A stretch of DNA of 64,000 nucleotides, from the NCBI GenBank assembly GCA_032622095.1, contig CP136062.1, positions 194,687,887-194,751,886 on the forward strand. The letters run 5' to 3'. Numbering within the stretch: the stretch's first letter is position 1; every line of letters starts with the position of its first letter. The stretch comes from Siphonodentalium dalli (taxonomy: Eukaryota; Mollusca; Scaphopoda; Gadilida; Siphonodentaliidae). The notes beneath the pieces were generated by a model. It searched no databases, was not told the origin of the DNA, and saw only the letters and a program-made list of their open reading frames with translations. Made by a program: the position numbers and the translations under genes. Shown here one piece after another: positions 1 to 49,495 of this stretch.

Positions 1-470
1 GCTTGAGTTTTCTCCCCGTATCATCATAATGTTTTAAACGATCGTGGTTTACTAATCCAGTATCCCTCAAGTAATTCGATTACGTCTTATACACGGAAAT
101 TCGTATTTTAATTTCCGCCATTTTATGGCTGGAGCCATACTCATTCAATTTATATCAAATTATTAACTTTTAAATTATTAAATTTTAAGATAGCCTATTA
201 ACCTGAGCGTTTACAGAATACATCTTCGACTCAAATTACTTATGTTTCTATATATTATCGATCTTAGATCGGTGTTATTACCGGAAATTTATTGAAAATG
301 GCGTACAGTACCCCTTTAACTAGTGCATGTTATTGATTTATTTTTGCAAGAAAAGATACTATTGAAGTAATTTCCATCAAAATGACAGCGGTATCGTATC
401 TTTTGAATTCCTCGCTGGGAGGAACAGAAATTTCTACAAAGGTTAAACAAATGGTCACATCTGCGCCTTC

Positions 471-752
471 TTAACCCTTTCATGACGGGAGCTGCGCTTA
501 TGCAGCATTAACAACAATTTGCCAGTGCATTCTCTTATATATGCGAATATCCCATATATAGGCAGCCTCGGATATATATAAGAGAATGCACTGGCTTACA
601 AGGTCAATATTGTTTGGCCAATGTATTCTCTTATACATGCGAGTCTCCCACGGAGCCTCGCATATATAAGAGAATACATTGGCCAAACAATATTTCTTAT
701 TGGCACAGGTTTTTTTCGCCAAAATTCAGGAAGCTGCAGTCATCCAAGGGCC
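471..752 (+). mobile_element. TTAA-flanked hairpin MITE, CATGAC-end subfamily
   Basis: Begins TTAACCCTTTCATGACGGGAGC and ends with a worn copy of the inverse (GCTGCAGTCATCCAAGGG). It contains two long hairpins (about 520-597 and 619-688) whose arms read CCAATG(T/C)ATTCTCTTATA.. and pair almost perfectly. A TTAA target plus CCC termini is the hallmark of piggyBac-type elements. No transposase is encoded, so it is non-autonomous. Confidence 0.8.
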
Positions 753-835
753 AGAAGTATTTGTCATTTATCAGACCGATAAATGACAAATACTTACAAT
801 CACACCAATCGTATCACACATAATTGTCATGCATA

Positions 836-1371
836 CAGGGGGGGGGGTCGGAAAAAAATTTCAGGCACGTATGGCATTTTTTCCCTTTCGATCATTTTTT
901 GTACCCACCCACCCCCACTGCAATTTTTTTTCCGTTTTTGGCAGTTTTTTCCGACCATTTTTTGACACCCACCCCCCCCCTTTTAACACTAAAACAGAGA
1001 TTTGCGGGGGGAAATTCACTGTAAACAGCTGTATATGAACTTCTGTGCATACTATTTATCATGGATGTTAACATGGACATGTAAATAGGAATGAGTCATT
1101 TTGAAGTCATTCGGCCAAAAAAACATGGCCGCCAGCGGCCATCTTGGATTTCAAAATTTGCAACAAAATACAACACGATAACTGCCTGCAGTCAGTTTAC
1201 CAGTTAGAATTACATTATTTCTCTCATTCAAAGTGGTTTTGAAGCCCAACTCATTGCCAAAACACTAAAAAACAAGCTGGAATTTTTTTGTTTAGTTGCG
1301 GAAAAAATTGCTTGTTGGTGGCTTTGACCACCCACCCACCCCGGCAATTTTTTTTTCACCCCCCCCCCCTG
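836..1371. mobile_element. hAT-like non-autonomous element with poly-G termini
   Basis: Termini are CAGGGGGGGGGG..GGAAAAAAATT and the inverse AATTTTTTTTT..CCCCCCCCCTG. ATGCATA flanks the element on both sides (829-835 and 1372-1378; 7 of 8 bp if the expected 8-bp duplication is assumed). CAGGG ends with 8-bp duplications typify hAT elements. The interior includes the GGCCGCCAGCGGCCATCTTGG motif that recurs near 9040-9230. Confidence 0.65.
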
Positions 1372-1557
1372 ATGCATAGCGAAAATAAATCAGCCTCAAG
1401 TGTGAGCAATGAGCAAAAATGTGTGAGCAATAACCAAAAAAGCTCGTAATTGAGAAGGCTCTTTATTATATGTCGCTTCTGGGGACAACACACGGATGAT
1501 CTTGATAAGATGCGATCGTTGGATTTTCTGCTTGCCTGACAGAATATTAAAAACATG

Positions 1558-1999
1558 TTAACCCTTTACCCAACAGGAGGGCCCTGTGCCAATGCATTCT
1601 CTTATATATGCGAGTCGACCATAGGTCGCCTCGCATATATAAGAGAATGCATTGGCCTAACAATTTTTCATCATTTGTTATTATTTGTTACTATTTTTTT
1701 ACAATTTTAATAATGTTTTCTTAAATTCTTTAACAGACTTATTTTGTAGGTTTAGTGCCAGGGAATCTTACGTTTTTCATGGGCATCAAAATTATTTCTA
1801 TGAATACTTGGTAATAGCTTTGAGTTATAACATGTCCCTAAGGTTTAATCCAGTTTGTTTTTTTAATTCGCTATGGCATGCTTAAGCATACCCAAAAAAA
1901 TATAACCCAAAAAAAAATCTATTTTCTAATTTTTTAATTTAACTCAACATACCGTAAATTAGGACCGATGAGATCGGCCCCTGGCACTGAAAGGGTTAA
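1558..1999 (+). mobile_element. TTAA-flanked hairpin MITE, single hairpin, long body
   Basis: Bounded by TTAA at 1558-1561 and 1996-1999. The left end is CCCTTTACCCAACA, the right end GGCACTGAAAGGG. One hairpin (about 1593-1656) precedes a roughly 330-bp AT-rich body that ends in CCGATGAGATCGGCCCC. A reversed relative lies at 30016-30386. Confidence 0.85.
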
Positions 2000-2120
2000 A
2001 CAAAATAAAAACGACTATTTTCAAGTTTGGTAATTGGAGAGTTTGACAGGAAGATTTACAACAAACGTTTTTAGCTTATAAACCAAACTAGGTGTGCACT
2101 CAGTTTACAATCTGAAATCG

Positions 2121-2420
2121 TGAATGTCTGCGAGAAAATAAATACAACATTTTTCAGTGCATATTTTAGTTTGTTTTTGGTGGCCATTTACATAACTATT
2201 TGTTTGTTGTGTGAAGGACCAACACAACATAAAACAACATCAATTTTATTCAACCATGTTTGTAATAATGTGACATACACGGTTAATACTGAATCATTTT
2301 TTCGGACAGTATGTTGTTTTATTGTGACTTTTCTTCCAAAAAGTAGTTCTGAAATTGGCCGCCAGGAAACTAAAATATGCAATGAATTTTTTTTATTTTT
2401 TTTCTCGCAGACATTCATGA
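2121..2420. mobile_element. Inverted-repeat element with GAATGTCTGCGAG ends
   Basis: The left end TGAATGTCTGCGAGAAAA is matched by TTTTTCTCGCAGACATTCA on the right. The arms continue inward for about 65 bp (GCATATTTTAGTTT near both ends, TGGCCA/TGGCCG). About 300 bp, no coding capacity, target duplication not obvious. Confidence 0.7.
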
Positions 2421-2600
2421 TTGTCCCCCGACATTCCGTCAGATGACTATAGTAATGACCCTCGTTCGTCCGTGCGTCGAAACGGACGTACGTCCGTCCG
2501 GAACTTTGTCCGAGCCTGTATTCTGTCATTTTCGTGTCACTTTTTTAAAACTTGGCACAGATAACAACCAGCATTGGGGTGATGCATGCATATATCCTTG
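2420..2600 (+). repeat. GTCCGTCCG-type dispersed repeat fragment
   Basis: Starts TTGTCCCCCGACATTCCG and runs through CGTCCGTGCGTCGAAACGG into ACTTTTTTAAAACTTGGCAC. It shares GTCCCCCGA plus a CGTCCG-rich block with 3130-3660, 18705-19010 and, in reverse, 23790-24015. Such blocks make short arginine/valine-rich ORFs that are not genes. Confidence 0.6.
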
Positions 2601-3129
2601 GTCCCTGCCCCAGTACAAACTGTTGGAAGGCGACAATGAAGAGTTAAGCCGAACCGGTTTATAATGTTCTCCCAGTTCCTATAGTTGCCAATATTATCTT
2701 GAAAATTAATAAGCACGTTCTTATTAGAGCGAGGTATATGTCAGTCTAACTAATCACACTGGTGTGTGTACGAGAATAATATAACAGGTCTTATGTCCTT
2801 TGGGCTATGGCGTACTTCACATTGTTGGTGGGTAATGGGGTGACAAATAAGATGCGATCTTGTGATTACAATTCAAGGTGTCGTATGATATGTAAATATT
2901 TCAACATCTTCATTGATTATGACGTGGATAACACTTATGGATTACCGTCACATTTGACATATACCCTCGGTTCGTTGGAAATGTAAGATGTACTCTACGC
3001 ATAACAGAGATACATGGTCACCTTATCGGAATGAAAATCGTTACACAATGTCAAACGCAATATATTTGCAACGTGCAAGCTAACCGATGAATAACAAAAA
3101 TGTGCACTCACAGATGTTAATACCCAGAT
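2601..3129. other. Intron 4 sequence without recognisable feature
   Basis: About 530 bp of plain AT-rich sequence. I looked for a further SLC7 exon on the minus strand here and found none. Confidence 0.5.
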
Positions 3130-3665
3130 CGTTTATTGTCCCCCGAAAAAAATGAATTTCGGGGGACTATTAAAATAGCCGGTGTCCGTCCGTGCGTCCG
3201 TGTGTCCGTCCGTGCGTCCGGAAATGGTTTCCGGATGATAACTTTAGTTTCGGTTATTAGATCAAAAGCAAATTTCATTGGTGAGTTTATCAGACCAAAA
3301 TACAGGTCAAGTTCGAATATGGGTTTGCTCGGCCCATTTTTGCGAGAGTTATGGCCCTTTTTTGTTTACTTAAATCTTGTAATTTTCTGGTTTCCGGATG
3401 ATAACTTCAGTTTGTGTGATCATATCTAAACCAAATTTGGTATGTGAGTTTATCATCCCTATGTACAGGTCAAGTTCGAATATGGGTATGCTTCGCCCAT
3501 TTTTGCGAGAGTTGTGGCCCTTTTTCGACTTGTTTTACTTAGAAAAGTACTCACTTTTTCGGTTTCCGGATGATATCTCAAGTTTGTATCCTTTAATTGC
3601 CAATACCGTTTTTATGTGGATCATTCATATCAAGATACAGGTCAAGTTCGAATTTTTCTTGTAAT
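3130..3665 (+). repeat. Dispersed element with three internal ~165-bp repeats
   Basis: Opens with an inverted pair around GTCCCCCGAAA/TTTCGGGGGAC, then CGTCCGTGCGTCC tandem words, then three diverged copies of a block beginning TTTCCGGATGATAAC (3228, 3389, 3562). Each continues with GGTCAAGTTCGAATATGGG and CCATTTTTGCGAGAGTT. No coding function is evident. Confidence 0.75.
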
Positions 3666-3742
3666 TTTCTTCATTTTGTGCCAATTTGAGGTTATATTTT
3701 GACTTTAAGAGTTTTATTAAGATTTGGTTATTTGTATGCATG

Positions 3743-4945
3743 TCAGTAATTATTATTATTATTATTATTATTATTATTTACATTTGTATAGCGCCTAACC
3801 CACAACAGAATTGTGTTCGCAGGCGCTGTTACATAAAAGAATCGATAAAAGTATATATACAATAAAACAGATTGGATAAGAAATACGTGAGGGTTAAAAT
3901 GACTGAATCAAAGAGATAAGCGAATCCTAAAAAAAATAAAAAAGATGCTCAAAATACATCTGTAGTTAAAAGTCAGTTTGAGAAATAAAAATCATAAACA
4001 TCCATTAACGGTAAGATTAAGCCAGTTGACTCCATATGCAATTTTAAAAAGGTGAGTTTTTAAAAGTTTTCGGAATTCTAAAACATCACTAATATGTCTG
4101 AGATCGTCGGAAAGATTGTTCCACAAGGTAGGAGCGGCAACACAGAAAGCTCTATCCACTAACGTGCGATGGCTGGACTTAGGAAGTATAAGAAGTCGTT
4201 TACTGTCTGATCTCTTCTGCGTCGAACCAGATGGTTGCCTTAGATTAACTAGTTCCTTTATATAATATGGTGCCGTTCCTTCGACCGCTCGGAATGTTAA
4301 CAACAAAATTTTAAATTCAATCCTGTACGGCACAGGAAGCCAGTGAAGATCCCGCAGCACTGGACTCATATCAGTCCTCCTGGGCACCCGGGCCACAATC
4401 CTGGCAGCAGTCTTCTGAACTTTCTGTAACTTATTCATTAGCGTGCCAGTGACGCCAAATAAGCACGCATTCATGAAGTCCAGCTTACTGCTGACCAAGG
4501 ATTGGACAATTGATTTAGTCGCCGATAGAGTCAAGTATTTCCTTATTCTTCCTATGTTTCTCAAGTGGTAGTTGCAAGTCCGACATACACTATTAACATG
4601 CGACTCCATGGTCATATTGGCATCGAAGATGGCTCCAAGGTTGCGAATACATTCACTTGCAGAAATTGAATTAGAATTGGTTTTTATAACAAGAGGAGAG
4701 TTTATTTTATTTAGTTGTTTCGTGGTTCCTATGACTATAATTTCAGTCTAAACTTAAAGTTTGTTAAGAAACATCCATTCCTTAACTTCCAAGACGCATT
4801 GTTCCACTGCAGCCACAGCATGAACCACAGACTGTTCACTGCCAGCCGAGAACGAAACATATAACTGACAGTCATCTGCGTATAGGTGAAACATGAGGCC
4901 ATGGCGGCGGATGAGACAATGCACAAGTGTCTTATCCATCTAATA
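3743..4945 (-). pseudogene. 5'-truncated CR1/L2-like LINE: RT C-terminal part and microsatellite tail
   Basis: On the minus strand one frame runs from about 4945 to 3992. It contains the RT active-site motif YADD (in LYADDCQLY), then EIIVIG, GAIFDANMTMESHVN, and the C-terminal block VLRDLHWLPVPYRIEFKILLLTF, followed by AFCVAAPTLWN and FRKLLKTHLFK. Two in-frame stops (TAA at 4754-4756, TAG at 4748-4750) interrupt it just after WMFLNKL. Otherwise no frameshift is seen, so decay is mild. The 3' end reads GGCGCTATACAAATGTAAAT and then (AAT)n at 3743-3778, the short-repeat tail characteristic of CR1/L2-group elements. Endonuclease and most of the RT are missing through 5' truncation. The clade assignment is from memory of motifs. 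Confidence 0.85.
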
Positions 4946-4984
4946 TATATTTTGGGACTTCTGTCTGTCTGTTAGCTATGGCCG

Positions 4985-5715
4985 GGAAAACTGCCAGTCG
5001 GACGGGAAAACTGCCAGACGGATTTTGACGAAATTTGATACCTAGGGTTACTTTTTGCCAGGGAGTGTTTTGGACGGGTCATATCGTGACTCCGACCTGA
5101 CATTGACCTTCAAAAAGGTAAATTCAAGGTCAAATCGGGTAAAACGGGACGGATTTCGACGAAATTTGATACCTACAGATACTTTTGTCCGGGGAGTCTT
5201 TTGGACTGGTCAAATCGTAACCCAGACCTGACCTTGACCCTCAAAAAGGTCAATTCAAGGTCAAATCGGGTAAAACGGACGGATTTCGACGAAATTTGAT
5301 ACCCATGGTTACTTTTGTCCGGGGAGTGTTTTGTACGGGTCAAATCGTGACCCCGACCTGACCTTGACCTTCAAAATTGTCAATTCAAGGTCAAATCGCG
5401 AATTTTGACGGGATTTCGACAACATTTGATACCTAGGGTTACTTTTGTCCGAGGAGTGTTTTGGACGGGTCAAATCGTGACCCCAACTTGACCTTGACCT
5501 TCAAAATGGTCAATTCAAGGTGAAATCGGGTAAAACCTGACGGATTTCGACGGGTACTTTTGTCGGGTACTTTTGTCCGGGGAGTGTTTTGTTCGGGTCA
5601 AATCGTTACCTCGACCTGATCTTGACCTTCAAAATGGTCAATTTAACGTCAAATCGCGCAATTCGCCGAAAAGCAGAGGGGAAACAGCCCGGACGAATTC
5701 GGGTCCACCAGCTAG
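4985..5715 (+). repeat. ~130-bp tandem repeat, about 5.5 units
   Basis: Units begin ACGGATTTCGACGAAATTTG near 5018, 5150, 5279, 5407 and (shortened) 5539, and continue TACTTTTGTCCGGGGAGTG, TTTTGGACGGGTCAAATCG and CCTGACCTTGACC. Divergence between units is modest. It is preceded by CTTCTGTCTGTCTGTTAGC. Not coding. Confidence 0.85.
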
Positions 5716-6940
5716 TATACTATACTTCTACAAAGCCTCCGCTCCAAATGAAGCCACCGGTTCGGGGGACACTGTGGCCGAGTGGCCTTTTATTCTACCT
5801 CGACCTTCTATTATCCTAATGGGCACTTTATACCATGCTTAGAATAGGATAAGTTTATTTACAATATACATACATGAATATCACAAACATATATGAACAA
5901 TAAATACGAATATTTTGTTTATTTCACGGGGGTGATATAGCTCTTCCAGGCTGTCTTCGTGTCATCCCCGTTGGCATAGGTATCGCTATAGTCAATGTTT
6001 AAAGATGGCGTATGTGGGCGTTAATCTCCATGTGAATGCACAGAAAATCTTGGCTTGTGAACATAATTATCAAGGGTATGTTACAGATACTGTTCAGGTT
6101 GATATGTACCATTGTCCTAAGTTAATTTAATTGCGCAGACTGATGGGTGGTATCCGTGTATATGTTGCCTGACTATGAATGGAAATGTGTGCACGATTTT
6201 ATTTTATTTTATTTGTTTCGGTATTTCACTCTTTAATGTCAAAATGTGTGTATATAAATTAACGACCACCACTTTGTAAATGGTCAATTTGTGTATGTAT
6301 AATGTACTCTTCATATCATGGAGGATAATAAAGGTATGTATATAATATTTATACAACGCACAATACATGTAAATATCATGATTGAAGCATTTGTTAGCAT
6401 GTTCGCTTTATGAACATCATTTCAAAAGATTCAGGTAGACGGTCATAATACAAGTCATGAATAAAGACCGATGAATGAAGAGTGTAAAGATCGAATATTT
6501 TCAAAATATGCTTTATATCACAAGTTGACATTTGTAATCTAGAACGTCCATTCTCCAATTTTTTACACAATGAGTTCCCACGGATAACTCTAACTGATAA
6601 CCAGTCCGCTTCTAAACCCGCCCACAAAAACAAACATTTCCATAGGGCGTATGAACCTCGCATACAGCATTTCAATGTCGGTAGAGGCGTTCTGCTCATT
6701 TGCTTATAAGGGGGTATCTATCACATTGAAACATGACCCGTCAGAATGCGATACTGCAGTAATAGAGTAACTGTTCTACTTCTGGACACAACCATATGAA
6801 TGCATCGTTCGTGTCAATAATATCCCAAACTGCATACGTGTCCAAAATACAGATAATTGCGTTGACAGTATATATTATGTTACGAAAGCGCATTAAGGCC
6901 ATCCGAAACACCACTGCATCCCCAAATATACAAATACACA
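5716..6940. other. Intron 4 sequence without recognisable feature
   Basis: About 1.2 kb. The longest minus-strand frame (6394-6699) shows no family resemblance and a residue mix like translated AT-rich noise. Nothing else stands out. Confidence 0.45.
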
Positions 6941-7226
6941 ACGCGTTATAACGACTTGCAAGTCGGTAATGTAATCACTTGCAAGTCGTTATAACGACTC
7001 CCAGCAACTCGTTATAACGACTTGTAGAAATAAAAACTTATAAATAAGAAATGTTCTATACAAGTCGCTTTAACGACTTGTTTTTATTTCTACAAGTCGT
7101 TATAACGAATTCCAAAAACGAGTTGCAACTCGTTATAACGAGTTGTAAGTCGTTATAACGACTTTCACAACTCACGAGTTGTAACTCGTTATAACGAGTT
7201 GTTGGAAGTCGTTATAACGACTTGTA
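6941..7226. repeat. Cluster of nine CGTTATAACG palindromes
   Basis: The perfect palindrome CGTTATAACG occurs about eight times, with one variant (CGCTTTAACG), usually inside larger palindromes such as CAAGTCGTTATAACGACTTG or AACTCGTTATAACGAGTT. Spacing is irregular at 20-55 bp, so it is not a simple tandem repeat. Confidence 0.85.
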
Positions 7227-7710
7227 GAAATAAGATCAAGTTCTTAGAACGACATGGGTGTTTGAACTCGAATATACTCTTTCTGAGAAAACAGAATTTA
7301 GACTGGCACTCATAAATGCTATTTCCCTATATCGGTGCTTATACAGCCACGCACATAAATGAAATTAACCAATTACGGCTTAGCTGATACCATTCTGCGT
7401 TATATACCCTGAATTATCCCACAAACGTTCACTCAGAAACAGTCACTCTCGTATGAATCTCGATTGCAGATCACGTCTTGATGGTCCACCATTCGGGGAT
7501 GCTCAATAACGCGGAATAGAATACTCGCTCAGTGCGACTACCATATATAATCGAATATTTTAGATGGAACATATCATTGCGCATTACGTAAATAGTATGT
7601 CGGAAATCCAGTCCACGATTTGCGCATTTTGGACACGGAACATTCACATTATATCAGTAAGCATAAATCCATTTATGATAGACCATAATATTGACGAAAC
7701 CACAAACGTA
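7227..7710. other. Intron 4 sequence without recognisable feature
   Basis: Unique-looking sequence downstream of the splice-donor array. No exon motif was recognised. Confidence 0.45.
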
Positions 7711-8425
7711 TATAGGGTATACAACTTACCTTGTGCTATGACGACGAGGCCGGTTATAGGGTATACAACTTACCTTGTGCTATGACGACGAGGCCGGTTA
7801 TATAGGGTATACAACTTACCTTGTGCTATGACGACGAGGCCGGTTATATAGGGTATACAACTTACCTTGTGTTATGACGACGAGGTCGGTTATATAGGGT
7901 ATACAACTTACCTTGTGCTATGACGACGAGGCCGGTTATATAGGGTATACAACTTACCTTGTGCTATGACGACGAGGCCGGTTATAGGGTATACAACTTA
8001 CCTTGTGCTATGACGACGAGGCCGGTTATAGGGTATACAACTTACCTTGTGCTATGACGACGAGGCCGGTTATAGGGTATACAACTTACCTTGTGCTATG
8101 ACGACGAGGCCGGTTATATGGTATACAACTTACCTTGTGCTATGACGACGAGGCCGGTTATAGGGTATACAACTTACCGTGTGCTATGACGACGAGGCCG
8201 GTTATAGGGTATACAACTTACCTTGTGCTATGACGACGAGGCCGGTTATAGGGTATACAACTTACCTTGTGCTATGACGACGAGGCCGGTTATAGGGTAT
8301 ACAACTTACCTTGTGCTATGACGACGAGGCCGGTTATAGGGTATACAACTTACCTTGTGCTATGACGACGAGGCCGGTTATAGGGTATACAACTTACCTT
8401 GTGCTATGACGACGAGGCCGGTTAT
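7711..8425 (-). repeat. Tandem array of exon 4 end plus 5' splice site (16 copies)
   Basis: Sixteen head-to-tail units of mostly 44 bp (46 bp when TATA is expanded to TATATA). Each unit, on the minus strand, carries GGCCTCGTCGTCATAGCA, CAAG|GTAAGT and TTGTATACCCTATA. The copy nearest the exon is the authentic exon 4/intron 4 boundary. The others repeat 22 coding bases plus the donor. Units are nearly identical. All 16 keep GTAAGT; one unit has CACG instead of CAAG before it (near 8178) and one has GTTATG for GCTATG (near 7871). High identity points to recent or ongoing expansion. Confidence 0.97.
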
Positions 8426-8523
8426 GATGATCATTAATAATGCTAATACTTTGGCTGTGGTAAAGATATTCTGAACATTGGCAGCGGCCTTCACACTCAT
8501 GACATTCACGAATGTCAACAAAG
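8398..8523 (-). CDS. SLC7 LAT-type amino-acid transporter, exon 4 (TM4-TM5)
   Basis: Fourth coding exon, 126 nt. Two bases complete the exon 3 codon, 41 codons follow, and one base is left (phase 1). The acceptor is CTTTCAG|CTTTG. The peptide TLLTFVNVMSVKAAANVQ.. and ..AKVLALLMIIITGLVVIAQG fits TM4 to TM5 of LAT transporters (LLT.VN...VK....VQ). The donor is CAAG|GTAAGT at 8392-8397. The last 22 exon bases and the first 20 or so intron bases are the repeat unit of a 16-copy tandem array that makes up the next 690 bp of the intron, so fifteen further identical donors follow. Reading through the first donor meets a TAA after six codons in 44-bp units, so only the first donor looks productive. 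Later exons are not in this window. Confidence 0.92.
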
Positions 8524-9972
8524 CTGAAAGAAAAAAACAAATTGTGAGACACTGGTTGAGAAGCTGAATAATATAAAAATAAATACCGAACGATTAAATG
8601 AGCAAGTGTTAGATGTAATTATGTCTACGGCTAAAAAGATTCAATTCCATCATTGTTCTGCGCCTTAAGCTAAAGCAATTGACACCCGTTTCTTTTTACC
8701 GGTATATCATTAATATATGTTAATTTTCCAGAATTCCCAGACACCACACACTGTCGCGATGGTACCGTCATGTGTGAGGCAACTAAGTGATAAGAAGCTT
8801 GTCAACGTTGGTTTTCAATATCTGCAGTATATGGGCTTTAAGACAATATCTACGAAACCCATTTCTCTAGAAAGACAAGATTTAAAAACAATATTCGGAA
8901 ACAATTCGATAGCTCCCATATCGAGGCTACCCCACATATCCATATGATGTTTGTCGACGATCGGACGAGGGAGATGGCCTACAGTGTGTGCCGATGGATT
9001 CAGTCAAGCAAAAAGTAAACTCCAGTATATATATGACCGAGATGGCCGTTGGCGGCCAAGTTTTTAAAACGAAAAAGATGTTCAGTGAGAATCGTTCAAA
9101 TTCAACAGCTCCTAACTAGAGGTGGTCCTAAAAATGCCTGGAATTTTTCAAAATATAGTTCTCCGATGAATGTTGAGTGCAGGGCGTACCAGATGGATTA
9201 AAATTTAAAATTCAAGATGGCTGTTGGCGACCATGTTTTCAACGAATTTCGGAACAATTCGACGGATCCCATCTAGGTGCAACCCCGAATTAATATGCAT
9301 AATTCAGACATGCAAAGAGTAAATCCATTCTCATAATAAGGCCCATAACTCAACAAAACCTGAATAGACAAAACCCGCTGTATGTATATATATTCTTTCC
9401 ATCGTGGTGGTTCATCAGTATACCAAAGAGCATGCAAATCCGACCACCAATGACTAAGATATAGAGCTCCAAAATTCGGACAAACGGACGTAACAACGGA
9501 CGGTACACATTCCATTTGCGGGGGGGGGGGGGGGGGTAATGACATGCAGTACTACCACATTGTGCTTGAATCTTACCTATCGAGCAGCATAACAGGAACA
9601 CGGTAGCGAATATGAATAGCAAAGGAAAATGCGCCTCTTTGGAGGGAATATCAGGCATGCTAACAACGGTGTTATCAATGTTCTTTAGCCTCCTGGTCTC
9701 AATGGAATTGACTAGCTAACATTATAGGAACTAATTGTATTGCTGATGGGTATCGATAGCATTAAGTTGCAAGGCCACACTGTCTGCCACTGTATATGTA
9801 CGAACACGACTATCAGCCTAATAATAATAAACGTCTGGGTCGCAACACGAGTAGTTATATTTAGCATGAATGATATGAAGGGCAATTCATTTCAGTTTCC
9901 ATGGAGTTATACGGGCGTTATATTCATTTGTCACAATATGTCTTGTATATACTTCATGAGGTTGTTGGTGAT
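8524..9972. other. Intron 3, left part: dispersed repeat remnants
   Basis: Contains two diverged copies of a block with GATGGCCGTTGGCGGCCA (near 9040 and 9215) and TCGGAACAATTCGA, related to the motif at 1115-1145, and a 19-base G run near 9519-9537. No exon recognised. Confidence 0.5.
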
Positions 9973-14272: not shown

Positions 14273-14405
14273 TTAGACACAGCGCTGCTAGCAACCGCAC
14301 GGCCATGTCTGGTGGATCACATGGAAATATAGATTGTAGTATGTAGTATGCGAATGTTAGTGATGTGATGGCTTGAGCTGTAGGTCGAATGATGAATAGG
14401 TTAAC
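14273..14405 (-). CDS. SLC7 LAT-type amino-acid transporter, exon 3 (TM3, heavy-chain cysteine)
   Basis: Third coding exon, 133 nt: 44 codons plus one base (ends in phase 1). The acceptor is TTTCAG|GTTAAC and the donor is GTAAGA (14267-14272). The peptide begins [22 protein letters not shown] (TM3) and continues [20 protein letters not shown]. The cysteine in FPCDPP matches the conserved extracellular TM3-TM4 loop cysteine that forms the disulfide with the SLC3A2 heavy chain, so this protein is predicted to be a heteromeric light chain. CDPP and RLLAA are closest by memory to y+LAT-type members; an alignment would settle this. A TTAA-flanked MITE (13792-14213) begins about 60 nt into the following intron. 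Confidence 0.92.
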
Positions 14406-19764: not shown

Positions 19765-19923
19765 CCAGAGTTGGATGAAGGCACACATCGGACCGAACAC
19801 TTCCATGATATAGGCGTAGTCTCCGCCCGACTTCGTGATTGTCGTGCCCAGCTCGGCATAACACAGCGCCCCCAATAACGACAGAAAACCGCAAACAACC
19901 CATATTATTAATGAAAGACCAAC
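19765..19923 (-). CDS. SLC7 LAT-type amino-acid transporter, exon 2 (TM2 and loop)
   Basis: Second coding exon of the same transporter, 53 codons, phase 0 at both ends. The acceptor is TTTCAG immediately before GTTGGT and the donor is GTGAGT (19759-19764). The peptide starts [13 protein letters not shown] and contains the highly conserved block [21 protein letters not shown], which spans TM2 and the first cytoplasmic loop and is near-identical in LAT1, LAT2 and y+LAT proteins. It ends ..CAFIQLW, continuing directly into exon 3. Intron 1, between it and exon 1, is 22,875 bp and packed with mobile elements. No stop codon, frameshift or missing signature residue is visible. Confidence 0.93.
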
Positions 19924-24069: not shown

Positions 24070-25395
24070 AAATTTCCGAGAAATTCCAGGTGTGCATCCC
24101 CCCGATGAGTTGGAATTTTCCAACTGCATGGTACCTCAATCTGGCCAACTGTTGGGAATGTTCAATCCAAACACCAATATGGTGGCAGAGTTCCAACTGA
24201 TGGACCGAAACTAAGAACATATTCGAGTTTGTATCTAAAAACAACAATTTCGCACTAATTATGGTTGGGGATCAAACAGTCTGATAAATATCCATTACTT
24301 TCAAGTTTCAACTACGTCTGACGACACCGGGATTCTGACTGATTTCAGTTATTGAAATGAAACAGGGTCTAATGGGGATCAAAGTATCAGAACAAGTTTA
24401 ACATATGTTTGGCGTGAATTTTCCAACTGGTGTTATGTGAGGCTTACAATTCCTAACTGGTGTTATGTGAGGCTTACAATTCCTAACTGGTGTTATGTGA
24501 GGCTTACAATTCCTAACTGGTGTTATGTGAGGCTTACAATTCCTAACTGGTGTTATGTGAGGCTTACAATTCCTAACTGGTGTTATGTGAGGCTTACAAT
24601 TCCTAACTGGTGCTATGTGAGGCTTACAATTCCTAACTGGTGTTATGTGAGGCTTACAATTCCTAACTGGTGTTATGCGAGGCTTACAATTCCTAACTGG
24701 TGTTATGTGAGGCTTACAATTCCTAACTGGTGTTATGTGAGGCTTACAATTCCTAACTGGTGTTATGTGAGGCTTACAATTCCTAACTGGTGTTATGTGA
24801 GGCTTACAATTCCTAACTGGTGTTATGTGAGGCTTACGATTCCTAACTGGTGTTATGTGAGGCTTACAACTCCTAACTGGTGTTATGTGAGGCTTACAAT
24901 TCCTAACTGGTGTTATGTGAGGCTTACAATTCCTAACTGGTGTTATGTGAGGCTTACAATTCCTAACTGGTGTTATGTGAGGCATACAATTTCCAATTGA
25001 TGTTATGTGAGGCTTACAATTCCTAACTGGTGTTATGTGAGGCATACAATTTCCAATTGATGTTATGTGAGGCTTACAATTCCTAACTGGTGTTATGTGA
25101 GGCATACAATTTCCAATTGATGTTATGTGAGGCTTACAATTCCTAACTGGTGTTATGTGAGGCATACAATTTCCAATTGATGTTATGTGAGGCTTACAAT
25201 TCCTAACTGGTGTTATGTGAGGCATACAATTTCCAATTGATGTTATGTGAGGCATACAATTTGTAACTGATGATTATGTCAGGCATACAATTTCCAATTG
25301 AATTCCAACTCTTGACAATATTGACCAAAGTTGTGGGGAGGGAGGATCGGGGCGTGAGACACCCGATCACGGCCTACCGCTACGTCTCCGAGAAT
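24070..25395. mobile_element. Member of the 15266/54036 hAT-like family carrying a minisatellite
   Basis: Flanks of the 30-bp minisatellite carry the family's signature words: GGAATTTTCCAACTG near 24111 and, to the right, TTGACCAAAGTTGTGGGGAG followed by GTGAGACACCC and CTACGTCTCCG near 25380. The right terminus fits the family; the left terminus is worn and its exact position is uncertain. Confidence 0.5.
24421..25280. repeat. 30-bp minisatellite, ~28 units, with 60-bp higher-order part
   Basis: The unit is TGTTATGTGAGGCTTACAAT plus TCCTAACTGG. Units 24421-24980 are almost invariant. From about 24981 the array switches to a 60-bp dimer alternating the standard unit with a GGCATACAATTTCCAATTGA variant, about five dimers. 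Because 30 is divisible by 3 and the unit lacks stops, long frames run on both strands (187 codons forward, 285 reverse, decapeptide repeats). With no conserved flank these are most likely by-products. Confidence 0.95.
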
Positions 25396-42798: not shown

Positions 42799-42999
42799 CG
42801 ATCCGACCTCGGCGACCACTCCTTTAGGCGAAATGAATATTCCTGATCCTATAATAGTCCCAACAATTATAGTGACACCATTAAACAGTGTGAGTTCCTG
42901 TTTAAGTTCGACAGTTTGTTCTACAACCACATCTTGTTTATCTACACTTGGATCATAATTGTTCACCACAAGCTTGTTTGTAGTTCGACCTCCTCCCAT
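42799..42999 (-). CDS. SLC7 LAT-type amino-acid transporter, exon 1 (start codon to TM1)
   Basis: First coding exon of a 12-TM amino-acid exchanger light chain. Known for the family: these proteins swap large neutral or cationic amino acids across the plasma membrane in a disulfide-linked pair with SLC3A2/4F2hc. Seen: 67 codons from an ATG in good context (CATCATGG), a roughly 35-residue polar N-tail, then TM1 with the family signature GTIIGSGIF at residues 48-55, where the unwound helix contacts substrate, followed by SPKGV. The exon stops after a complete codon at a consensus donor (GTGAGT, 42793-42798). Phase 0 joins it to exon 2 to give EVGS|VGLS, as in family members. A TTAA-family MITE ends about 14 nt past the donor. 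The LAT versus y+LAT paralogue is not decided. Confidence 0.9.
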
Positions 43000-45802: not shown

Positions 45803-46862
45803 AACTGGACTACCGGTAGCATCTTCGGTGGTGCACAGGCGACCACCAGTCTTCGCGGCCGAGTGGGAGGAGGCAGTCGGCCGATCCACAGCTGCCCTAT
45901 TCTTACTCCACTCAGCCCTCCAAGCTGCGTCCCTGTGTCGACGTGAAGGGGTCTTCTTCCTCCTCGTCCCTGCTCCGGTGGTCACATTTCTGCCGACGCT
46001 CTTGAGCTCCTGCATGGTGGTGTCCAGCTGATGAAGTCCTGTACTCCACGGATAGAGTTACGAAGCCACCCTTAGCCTGGTGAAGATTCCAGCTAAGGGT
46101 GTCCACAACGCATAGTCTACCCAAGGCCGCTAACAAAACGAGGGGATTAATTGCATTGAACATAAAAGCAAGTGCAAATAATGTCCGAACAGAAGTATAT
46201 AACCCTTAAATATATAAGAGAATGAACCGTCACAGGTCATGAAATGGTTAACGCGTGTGTCATAACTATTTTGATCCTCGGAAATGGGACCGGGATGTAA
46301 TAAAAGCGAGAACAATAATTTCAGACGAATGTAAAAACCCAGCACGCCAATTGGAAAATGATTGCGACAATGTATATAGGCGCAAATTACAGATACTACC
46401 ACTATACAGTCTCGACCATATGACCCTGCCAAACATTAGTCACAGTAACAGCAAATCCAAATAATTTATAAATAATACTTATATTACAAATTATATGTAA
46501 TTTATATCTGTTCCTTGTGACATGTGGCACGTCACCCCCCCCCCCCACACACACACTTTTCTCACAAATTATGGATATTATAATAGTAGTGTAATTACTT
46601 CCAAAATTTTGAATCTACATCGCCTCCAATTGCAATTTTGACTGCCAGCACCTCAAAAGTGCACCAAATTGCACCCATTTTCAGCCCCTCCCATGAGCCC
46701 CCATAGCATGCTCGGATGTGTGGCACTAATCTTTAAATCGTGGCTACGGATATGGATCACATTAGTATATGTTGACACCAGTTCTCTCTCTAAAAAAAAA
46801 GAAGGTCATTCAAGTAATAGTATTTACGAAAATCTTATTCCAATTTTTCTTCAGCATGGAAC

Positions 46863-47265
46863 AATAAAGAGCGTTCCCTGTTAGTCTATTCCTGATACGG
46901 TAACAATAAAGAGCGTTTCTTGTTAGTCTATTCCTGATATGGTAACAATAAAGAGCGTTCCTTGTTAATCTATTCCTGATATTGTAACAATAAAGAGCAT
47001 TCCTTGTTAGTCTTTTCCTGATACGATTTAAATAAAGAGCGTTTCTTGTTAGTCTATTCCTGATATGGTAACAATAAAGAGCGTTCCTTGTTAGTCTATT
47101 CCTGATATGGTAACAATAAAGAGCATTCCTTGTTAGTCTTTTCATGATACGGTTTAAATAAAGAGCGTTTCTTGTTAGTCTATTCCTGATATGGTAACAA
47201 TAACGAGCGTTCATTGTTAGTCTATTCTTGATATGGTAACACTAAAGAACGTTCCTTATGGGTAA
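46863..47265 (+). repeat. 42-bp satellite, ~10 units (arm A)
   Basis: The unit starts AATAAAGAGCGTTCCTTGTT and continues AGTCTATTCCTGATATGGTAAC. Each unit carries an AATAAA. The reverse strand is open (14-residue repeat NRLTRNALYCYHIR) only because the period is divisible by 3. Confidence 0.95.
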
Positions 47266-48303: not shown

Positions 48304-49000
48304 AGCAAGTGCAAATAATGTCCGAACAGAAGTATATAACCCTTAAATATATAAGAGAATGAACCGTCACAGGTCATGAAATGGTTAACGCGTGTGTCAT
48401 AACTATTTTGATCCTCGGAAATGGGACCGGGATGTAATAAAAACGAGAACAATAATTTCAGACGAATGTAAAAACTCAGCACGCCAATTGGAAAATGATT
48501 GCGACAATGTATATAGGCGCAAATTACAGATACTACCACTATACAGTCTCGACCATATGACCCTGTCAAACATTAGTCACAGTAACAGCAAATCCAAATA
48601 ATTTATAAATAATACTTATATTACAAATTATATGTAATTTATATCTGTTCCTTGTGACATGTGGCACGTCACCCCCCCCCCACACACACGTTTCTCACAA
48701 ATTATGGATATTATAATAGTAGTGTAATTACTTCCAAAATTTTGAATCTACATCGCCTCCAATTGCAATTTTGACTGCCAGCACATCAAAAGTGCACCAA
48801 ATTGCACCCATTTTCAGCCCGCCCCCCCCCATGAGTCCCCATAGCATGCTCGGATGTGTGGCACTAATCTTTAAATCGTGGCTACGGATATGGATCACAT
48901 TAGTATATGTTGACACCAGTTCTCTCTCTAAAAAAAAAAAGGTCATTCAAGTAATAGTATTTACGAAAATCTTATTCCAATTTTTCTTCAGCATGGAACA

Positions 49001-49495
49001 ATAAAGAGCGTTCCTTGTTAGTCTATTCCTGATATGGTAACAATAAAGAACGTTCCTTGTTAATCTATTCCTGATATGGCAACAATAAAGAGCGTTCCTT
49101 GTTAATCTATTCCTGATATTGTAACAATAAAGAGCATTCCTTGTCAGTCTTTTCCTGATACGGTTTAAATAAAGAGCGTTTCTTGTTAGTCTATTCCTGA
49201 TATTGTAACAATAAAGAGCATTCCTTGTCAGTCTTTTCCTGATACGGTTTAAATAAAGAGCGTTTCTTGTTAGTCTATTCCTGATATGGTAACAATAAAG
49301 AGCGTTCCTTGTTAGTCTATTCCTGATATGGTAACAATAAAGAGCATTCCTTGTTAGTCTTTTCCTGATACGGTTTAAATAAAGAGCGTTTCTTGTTAGT
49401 CTATTCCTGATATGGTAACAATAAAGAGCGTTCCTTGTTAGTCTATTCTTGATATGGTAACACTAAAGAACGTTCCTTGTTAGTCTATTCCTGAT
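49001..49495 (+). repeat. 42-bp satellite, 12 units (arm B)
   Basis: Same unit as arm A at 42-bp steps from 49001. Two sequence types recur in a pattern (GGTAACAATAAAGAGC and GGTTTAAATAAAGAGC), giving a partial higher-order arrangement. Confidence 0.95.

Follow-up and report, generated by a model that had tools for sequence, protein, structure and literature searches.

A 16-unit minisatellite of splice donors at an exon boundary of an SLC7 transporter gene

Introduction

Which donor does a gene use when the end of one of its exons stands, together with its 5' splice site, in 16 tandem copies, and does such an array serve any function? The question is raised by a locus on the minus strand of a 64-kb stretch of DNA, the whole of which was analyzed here (hereafter the window). 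A sequence-only reading had described the array at this locus and proposed two roles for it, namely a copy-number-dependent route to nonsense-mediated decay (NMD) or a U1 sink. The locus offers a natural test of donor choice, with 16 strong 5' splice sites, all but one of which share the same nine bases, and with every wrong choice flagged by one common stop codon. If copy number differs among individuals, it would also gauge how many competing donors exon definition tolerates.

Results

Host gene

Exons were placed by tblastn with a human SLC7A9 sequence, and their ends were set by hand at splice signals (Table 1). The three junctions between exons 1 to 4 are all GT/AG with agreeing phases (0, 0, 1), and the joined exons form an open frame of 207 residues, the window holding only the N-terminal part of the protein. 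These residues matched Pfam PF13520 (AA_permease_2; E 3e-28, profile positions 1-169 of 427) and the NCBIfam L-type transporter model (E 5.5e-75), the latter with 252.8 bits, below the model cut-off of 701.8. Among PDB chains, 33 distinct sequences were matched at E up to 0.001. The top 18 were LAT-type or SLC7A13 chains (E 5.9e-68 to 2e-22), the first being a consensus-mutated construct, and the remainder were more distant permeases. Judged from these N-terminal 207 residues, the host gene encodes an SLC7 LAT-type transporter, which agrees with the gene family and the exon boundary named in the sequence-only reading. Since exons 1 to 4 join into a LAT-matching open frame, we take the first donor to be the gene's own splice site.

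Searches of the minus strand at positions 1-7711 with human SLC7A9 and with a C-terminal part of LAT1 yielded no exon downstream of exon 4. The later half of the protein had no match there better than E 11, and the best match with the LAT1 part (E 0.49) fell at 9625-9554, upstream of exon 4. Exon 4 is flanked by an intron of 5.7 kb upstream and, if no exon was missed, by one of more than 8.3 kb downstream of donor 1. No repeats were found in the short stretches searched near the four exons, the exon 4 stretch containing part of copy 1 only. An exon-like ORF (MPDIPSKEAHFPLLFIFATVFLLCCSI) lies at 9577-9716 on the minus strand, with a phase-1 donor (AG/GTAAGA) that would permit an in-frame join to exon 4. 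The joined ORF and exon 4 scored 23.8 bits against PF13520, under the cut-off of 27, exon 4 supplying most of the score; this ORF could possibly be an alternative first exon, or else a product of chance.

Table 1. Coding exons, array and donors placed in the window (a slash marks the exon/intron junction).
Feature	Coordinates	Strand	Basis
Coding exon 1, from presumed ATG; donor ATCG/GTGAGT, phase 0	42799..42999	(-)	tblastn and frame
Coding exon 2, 159 nt; acceptor TTTCAG, donor CTGG/GTGAGT, phase 0	19765..19923	(-)	tblastn and frame
Coding exon 3, 133 nt; acceptor TTTCAG, donor CTAA/GTAAGA, end phase 1	14273..14405	(-)	tblastn and frame
Coding exon 4, 126 nt; acceptor TTTCTTTCAG, donor CAAG/GTAAGT at 8397, end phase 1	8398..8523	(-)	tblastn, frame, PF13520
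Minisatellite, 16 units	7711..8425	(-)	TRF and copy-by-copy reading of units
Donor of copy 1; alone among 16 in giving the LAT frame	8392..8397	(-)	frame
Copy 6 donor, altered at -2 (ACG/GTAAGT)	8172..8180	(-)	copy comparison
Donors of copies 2-16; any one leads to a stop after codon 212 (IAQGKLYTL, then stop)	7724..8353	(-)	frame

Array anatomy

In the one haplotype analyzed, TRF gave the array a period of 44 and 16.1 copies, with 98% matches and a score of 1330. On the minus strand it holds 16 GTAAGT sites, the first bases of which run from 8397 to 7729 in steps of 44 bp (11 times) or 46 bp (four times). The 46-bp length is confined to units 11-14, with 44 bp in units 1-10 and in unit 15; the two lengths differ by one TA within TATATA. 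The last unit merges into the flank. Each unit spans the exon/intron boundary, with a 28-nt exon 4 tail (ATAACCGGCCTCGTCGTCATAGCACAAG) placed by homology and frame, followed by 16 intron bases (GTAAGTTGTATACCCT) or by 18 (with AT added). The units carry the AG/GT splice signals seen in many lancelet "mirages," which are tandem duplications of exon/intron boundaries (PMC3087553). Divergence is low: apart from the TA length variation, only five differences from the consensus were observed across the 16 copies, located at the exon base on the left edge of copy 1, once each in copies 6 and 7, and twice in copy 13. The motif AAG/GTAAGT is present in 15 of the 16 copies. On both strands of the window, AAGGTAAGT was matched 15 times, always inside the array, compared with 0.62 on average, and 3 at most, in 100 shuffles. 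Elsewhere in the window, the array unit had nothing beyond 11-12-bp matches at two places.

These data confirm a splice-donor minisatellite at the exon 4 boundary, with the exon tail and donor amplified into 16 copies and GTAAGT intact in all of them, as the sequence-only reading had it. CAAG precedes GTAAGT in 15 of 16 copies; copy 6 has CACG there and reads ACGGTAAGT.

Other repeats and open frames were noted in the window. Imperfect repeats of TCGTTATAACGA palindromes lie at 7094-7226, approximately 0.5 kb from the splice-donor array. A 42-bp repeat array occurs twice (46856-47257 and 48993-49495) with similar flanks and starts approximately 2.1 kb apart, and is probably a duplicated or mobile segment. 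A 30-bp array of 29 copies (24421-25292) has long open frames on both strands, since its unit is a multiple of three. On the minus strand, a 251-codon ORF (3992-4747) had no Pfam match at E 0.1; by motif only, it looks like a LINE reverse transcriptase tail. Neither an Rfam search at gathering thresholds nor an ARAGORN run with the bacterial code gave any hit.

Outcome of each donor choice

Donor 1 gives the in-frame exon 4 of 126 nt. All 15 later donors, as well as intron retention, read into the same IAQGKLYTL and stop, so the earlier claims that only the first donor keeps the frame and that later donors add a stop were both borne out. The truncated product is identical at any copy number, since the stop sits in the first extra unit. 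The distance from this stop to the new junction is 24 nt for donor 2 and 68-648 nt for donors 3-16; if exons follow, NMD of later-donor transcripts would be expected. Use of a later donor extends exon 4 to 170-794 nt. In a rough donor score, 15 of the 16 donors are equal, in agreement with the ladder of near-equal donors at 44-46-bp steps proposed before, and copy 1 ranks highest among the gene's four donors. The exon 3 donor is weak in the same score (0.58 vs. 7.7 for copy 1).

Origin and selection

ATAACC opens the first unit, and ATA also stands 44 or 46 bp beyond the point where the last unit starts, which amounts to a 3-bp microhomology. Since a 3-bp match at offset 44 is found at 2.9% of window positions, the microhomology speaks modestly for a duplication, and the array may tentatively be traced to a duplication at ATA followed by expansion in copy number. 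A random 44-bp founder unit would cover one of the seven splice junctions placed in the window with a probability of about 0.005. Genome-wide, with many minisatellites, junction-covering founders would be expected. Over 704 unit positions, the chance that no unconstrained substitution hits the 96 GTAAGT positions is 0.56 (four substitutions) or 0.48 (five). Universal retention of GTAAGT therefore does not indicate function.

Discussion

Donor choice

We consider it likely that the array is a mirage-type minisatellite of recent origin that is removed by splicing from the first donor, with the other copies tolerated as intron. The exon 4/intron 4 boundary would first have been doubled by a tandem duplication at the 3-bp ATA microhomology, and the rise to 16 copies would have followed through slippage or unequal exchange. 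Long flanking introns are the setting of exon definition, under which the exon 4 acceptor would pair with donor 1, since copy 1 leaves exon 4 complete. The remaining 15 copies would leave within intron 4, and leaky use of a later donor would give only a truncated, probably decayed transcript, the array being mainly tolerated and not functional. This explanation assumes splicing of exon 4 to an exon further downstream. In five minigenes of human sequence, each offering a pair of identical CAG/guaagu donors (vs. 16 donors here) under exon definition, the upstream donor was used exclusively (PMC9225289). A preference for shorter exons is also reported in that paper. Transcriptome-wide, the same source reports that approximately 60% of alternative donor use was downstream before filtering and that 60% was upstream once scores were near equal. 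By analogy with these two-donor minigenes, and given the long flanking introns, we infer that first-donor use is most likely in this array.

Two further candidates were rejected. The AG of the unit is unlikely to act as an acceptor (recursive splicing, pseudo-exons): its tract is 62.5% pyrimidine and 25% T, compared with 81-88% and 75-81%, respectively, for the acceptors of exons 2-4. It has a second AG 4 nt upstream and no T-rich tract, and a search of two joined units gave no yTnAy branch-like motif. RNA structure hiding the later donors gave no signal in a stretch covering exon 4 and the first four donors (z -0.68; 42 of 200 shuffles equally good).

The array could also be leaky, measurable use of later donors, the stop after codon 212 and NMD setting transporter output, with more copies leading to more loss. 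Such a reading gains from the one stop shared by the 15 later donors and intron retention, and from the 14 of 15 later donors that match donor 1 in the rough score. Moreover, later copies of such arrays can be used, since human IFI6 uses two downstream repeat units (PMC4526556). However, the minigenes that spliced exclusively from the upstream donor, the growth of exon 4 from 126 to 170-794 nt where shorter exons are preferred (PMC9225289), and the lancelet mirages reported without disturbed splicing (PMC3087553; PMC3902484) make it unlikely. Copy-number dependence of NMD, as put forward earlier, was not sustained, the stop lying in the first extra unit at any copy number and GTAAGT retention being explicable without selection. 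Nor did the sequence lend support to a U1 sink as function, the retention having a probability of about 0.48-0.56 when unconstrained. A related platform, in which the ladder draws many U1 snRNPs and thus secures exon 4 or blocks premature polyadenylation in a long intron, would fit the 15 AAG/GTAAGT within 0.7 kb (vs. 0.62 expected per shuffled 64-kb window) and the weak exon 3 donor (0.58 vs. 7.7, rough score). We nevertheless hold it to be very improbable, as GTAAGT bears no sign of selection, copy 1 is already the best-scoring of the gene's four donors, and no repeats were found in the short stretches around the other three coding exons. It is likewise improbable that the 16 U1 sites form a ladder under selection, perhaps in a non-lancelet animal, with copy number tuning productive splicing or intron 4 transcription as a heritable splicing rheostat. 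Tandem arrays are often mis-assembled and the true copy number might be lower, but the copies are distinguishable by their 44- and 46-bp lengths and five scattered differences, which argues against a simple assembly loop and renders such an artefact extremely unlikely.

Comparison with known splice-boundary minisatellites

The young, tolerated minisatellite that we favor is a member of a described kind, given the lancelet mirages and human IFI6 as reported in the papers cited here, and the earlier remark that minisatellites including a splice junction are rarely described should be amended to include these precedents. In lancelets, the Adh3 mirage has units of 10-72 bp and somatic instability, and globin mirages were described in BflGb6 (3 or 6 units of 150-160 bp on the acceptor side, with 81-100% identity) and BflGb9; regular splicing was reported not to be disturbed by the Adh3 and globin mirages (PMC3087553). 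A troponin C mirage and imperfect PGBD5 repeats are also known in lancelets, and no aberrant mRNAs were reported to be generated by the Adh and troponin C mirages (PMC3902484). The present array resembles them in its intragenic tandem exon/intron boundary copies with AG/GT, its 44-46-bp units falling within the Adh3 range. It differs in having 16 near-identical donor units in another gene, whereas BflGb6 has three or six acceptor-side units. In a lancelet host the array would be a further mirage; in any other host it would carry mirages beyond lancelets into a second lineage. Either way it adds a new gene, and perhaps a new lineage, to the reported splice-boundary minisatellites.

The minisatellite of human IFI6 (6-16) has 12-bp units in about 26 copies. 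It contains multiple splice donors (Turri et al., 1995, via PMC4526556), and two downstream repeat units also act as donors, leading to three mRNA species (PMC4526556). Both minisatellites have units that contain splice donors; unlike the downstream units of IFI6, which yield different isoforms, any later donor here truncates. Variable tandem repeats at exon-intron boundaries were also reported in human paralogs (PMC2812944).

Splice-boundary minisatellites have been discussed as a path to new introns. Under the Rogers model, tandem duplication of an AG/GT segment could found a new intron, as proposed for mirages (PMC3087553), and PMC4974935 likewise concerns the gain of introns through tandemly duplicated AG/GT segments. 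A duplicated AG/GT segment is present in this array as well, but its unit AG is a poor acceptor, and, with donor 1 in use, copies 2-16 would fall within an intron that already exists. Among these systems, the array is notable for its 16 nearly identical strong donors.
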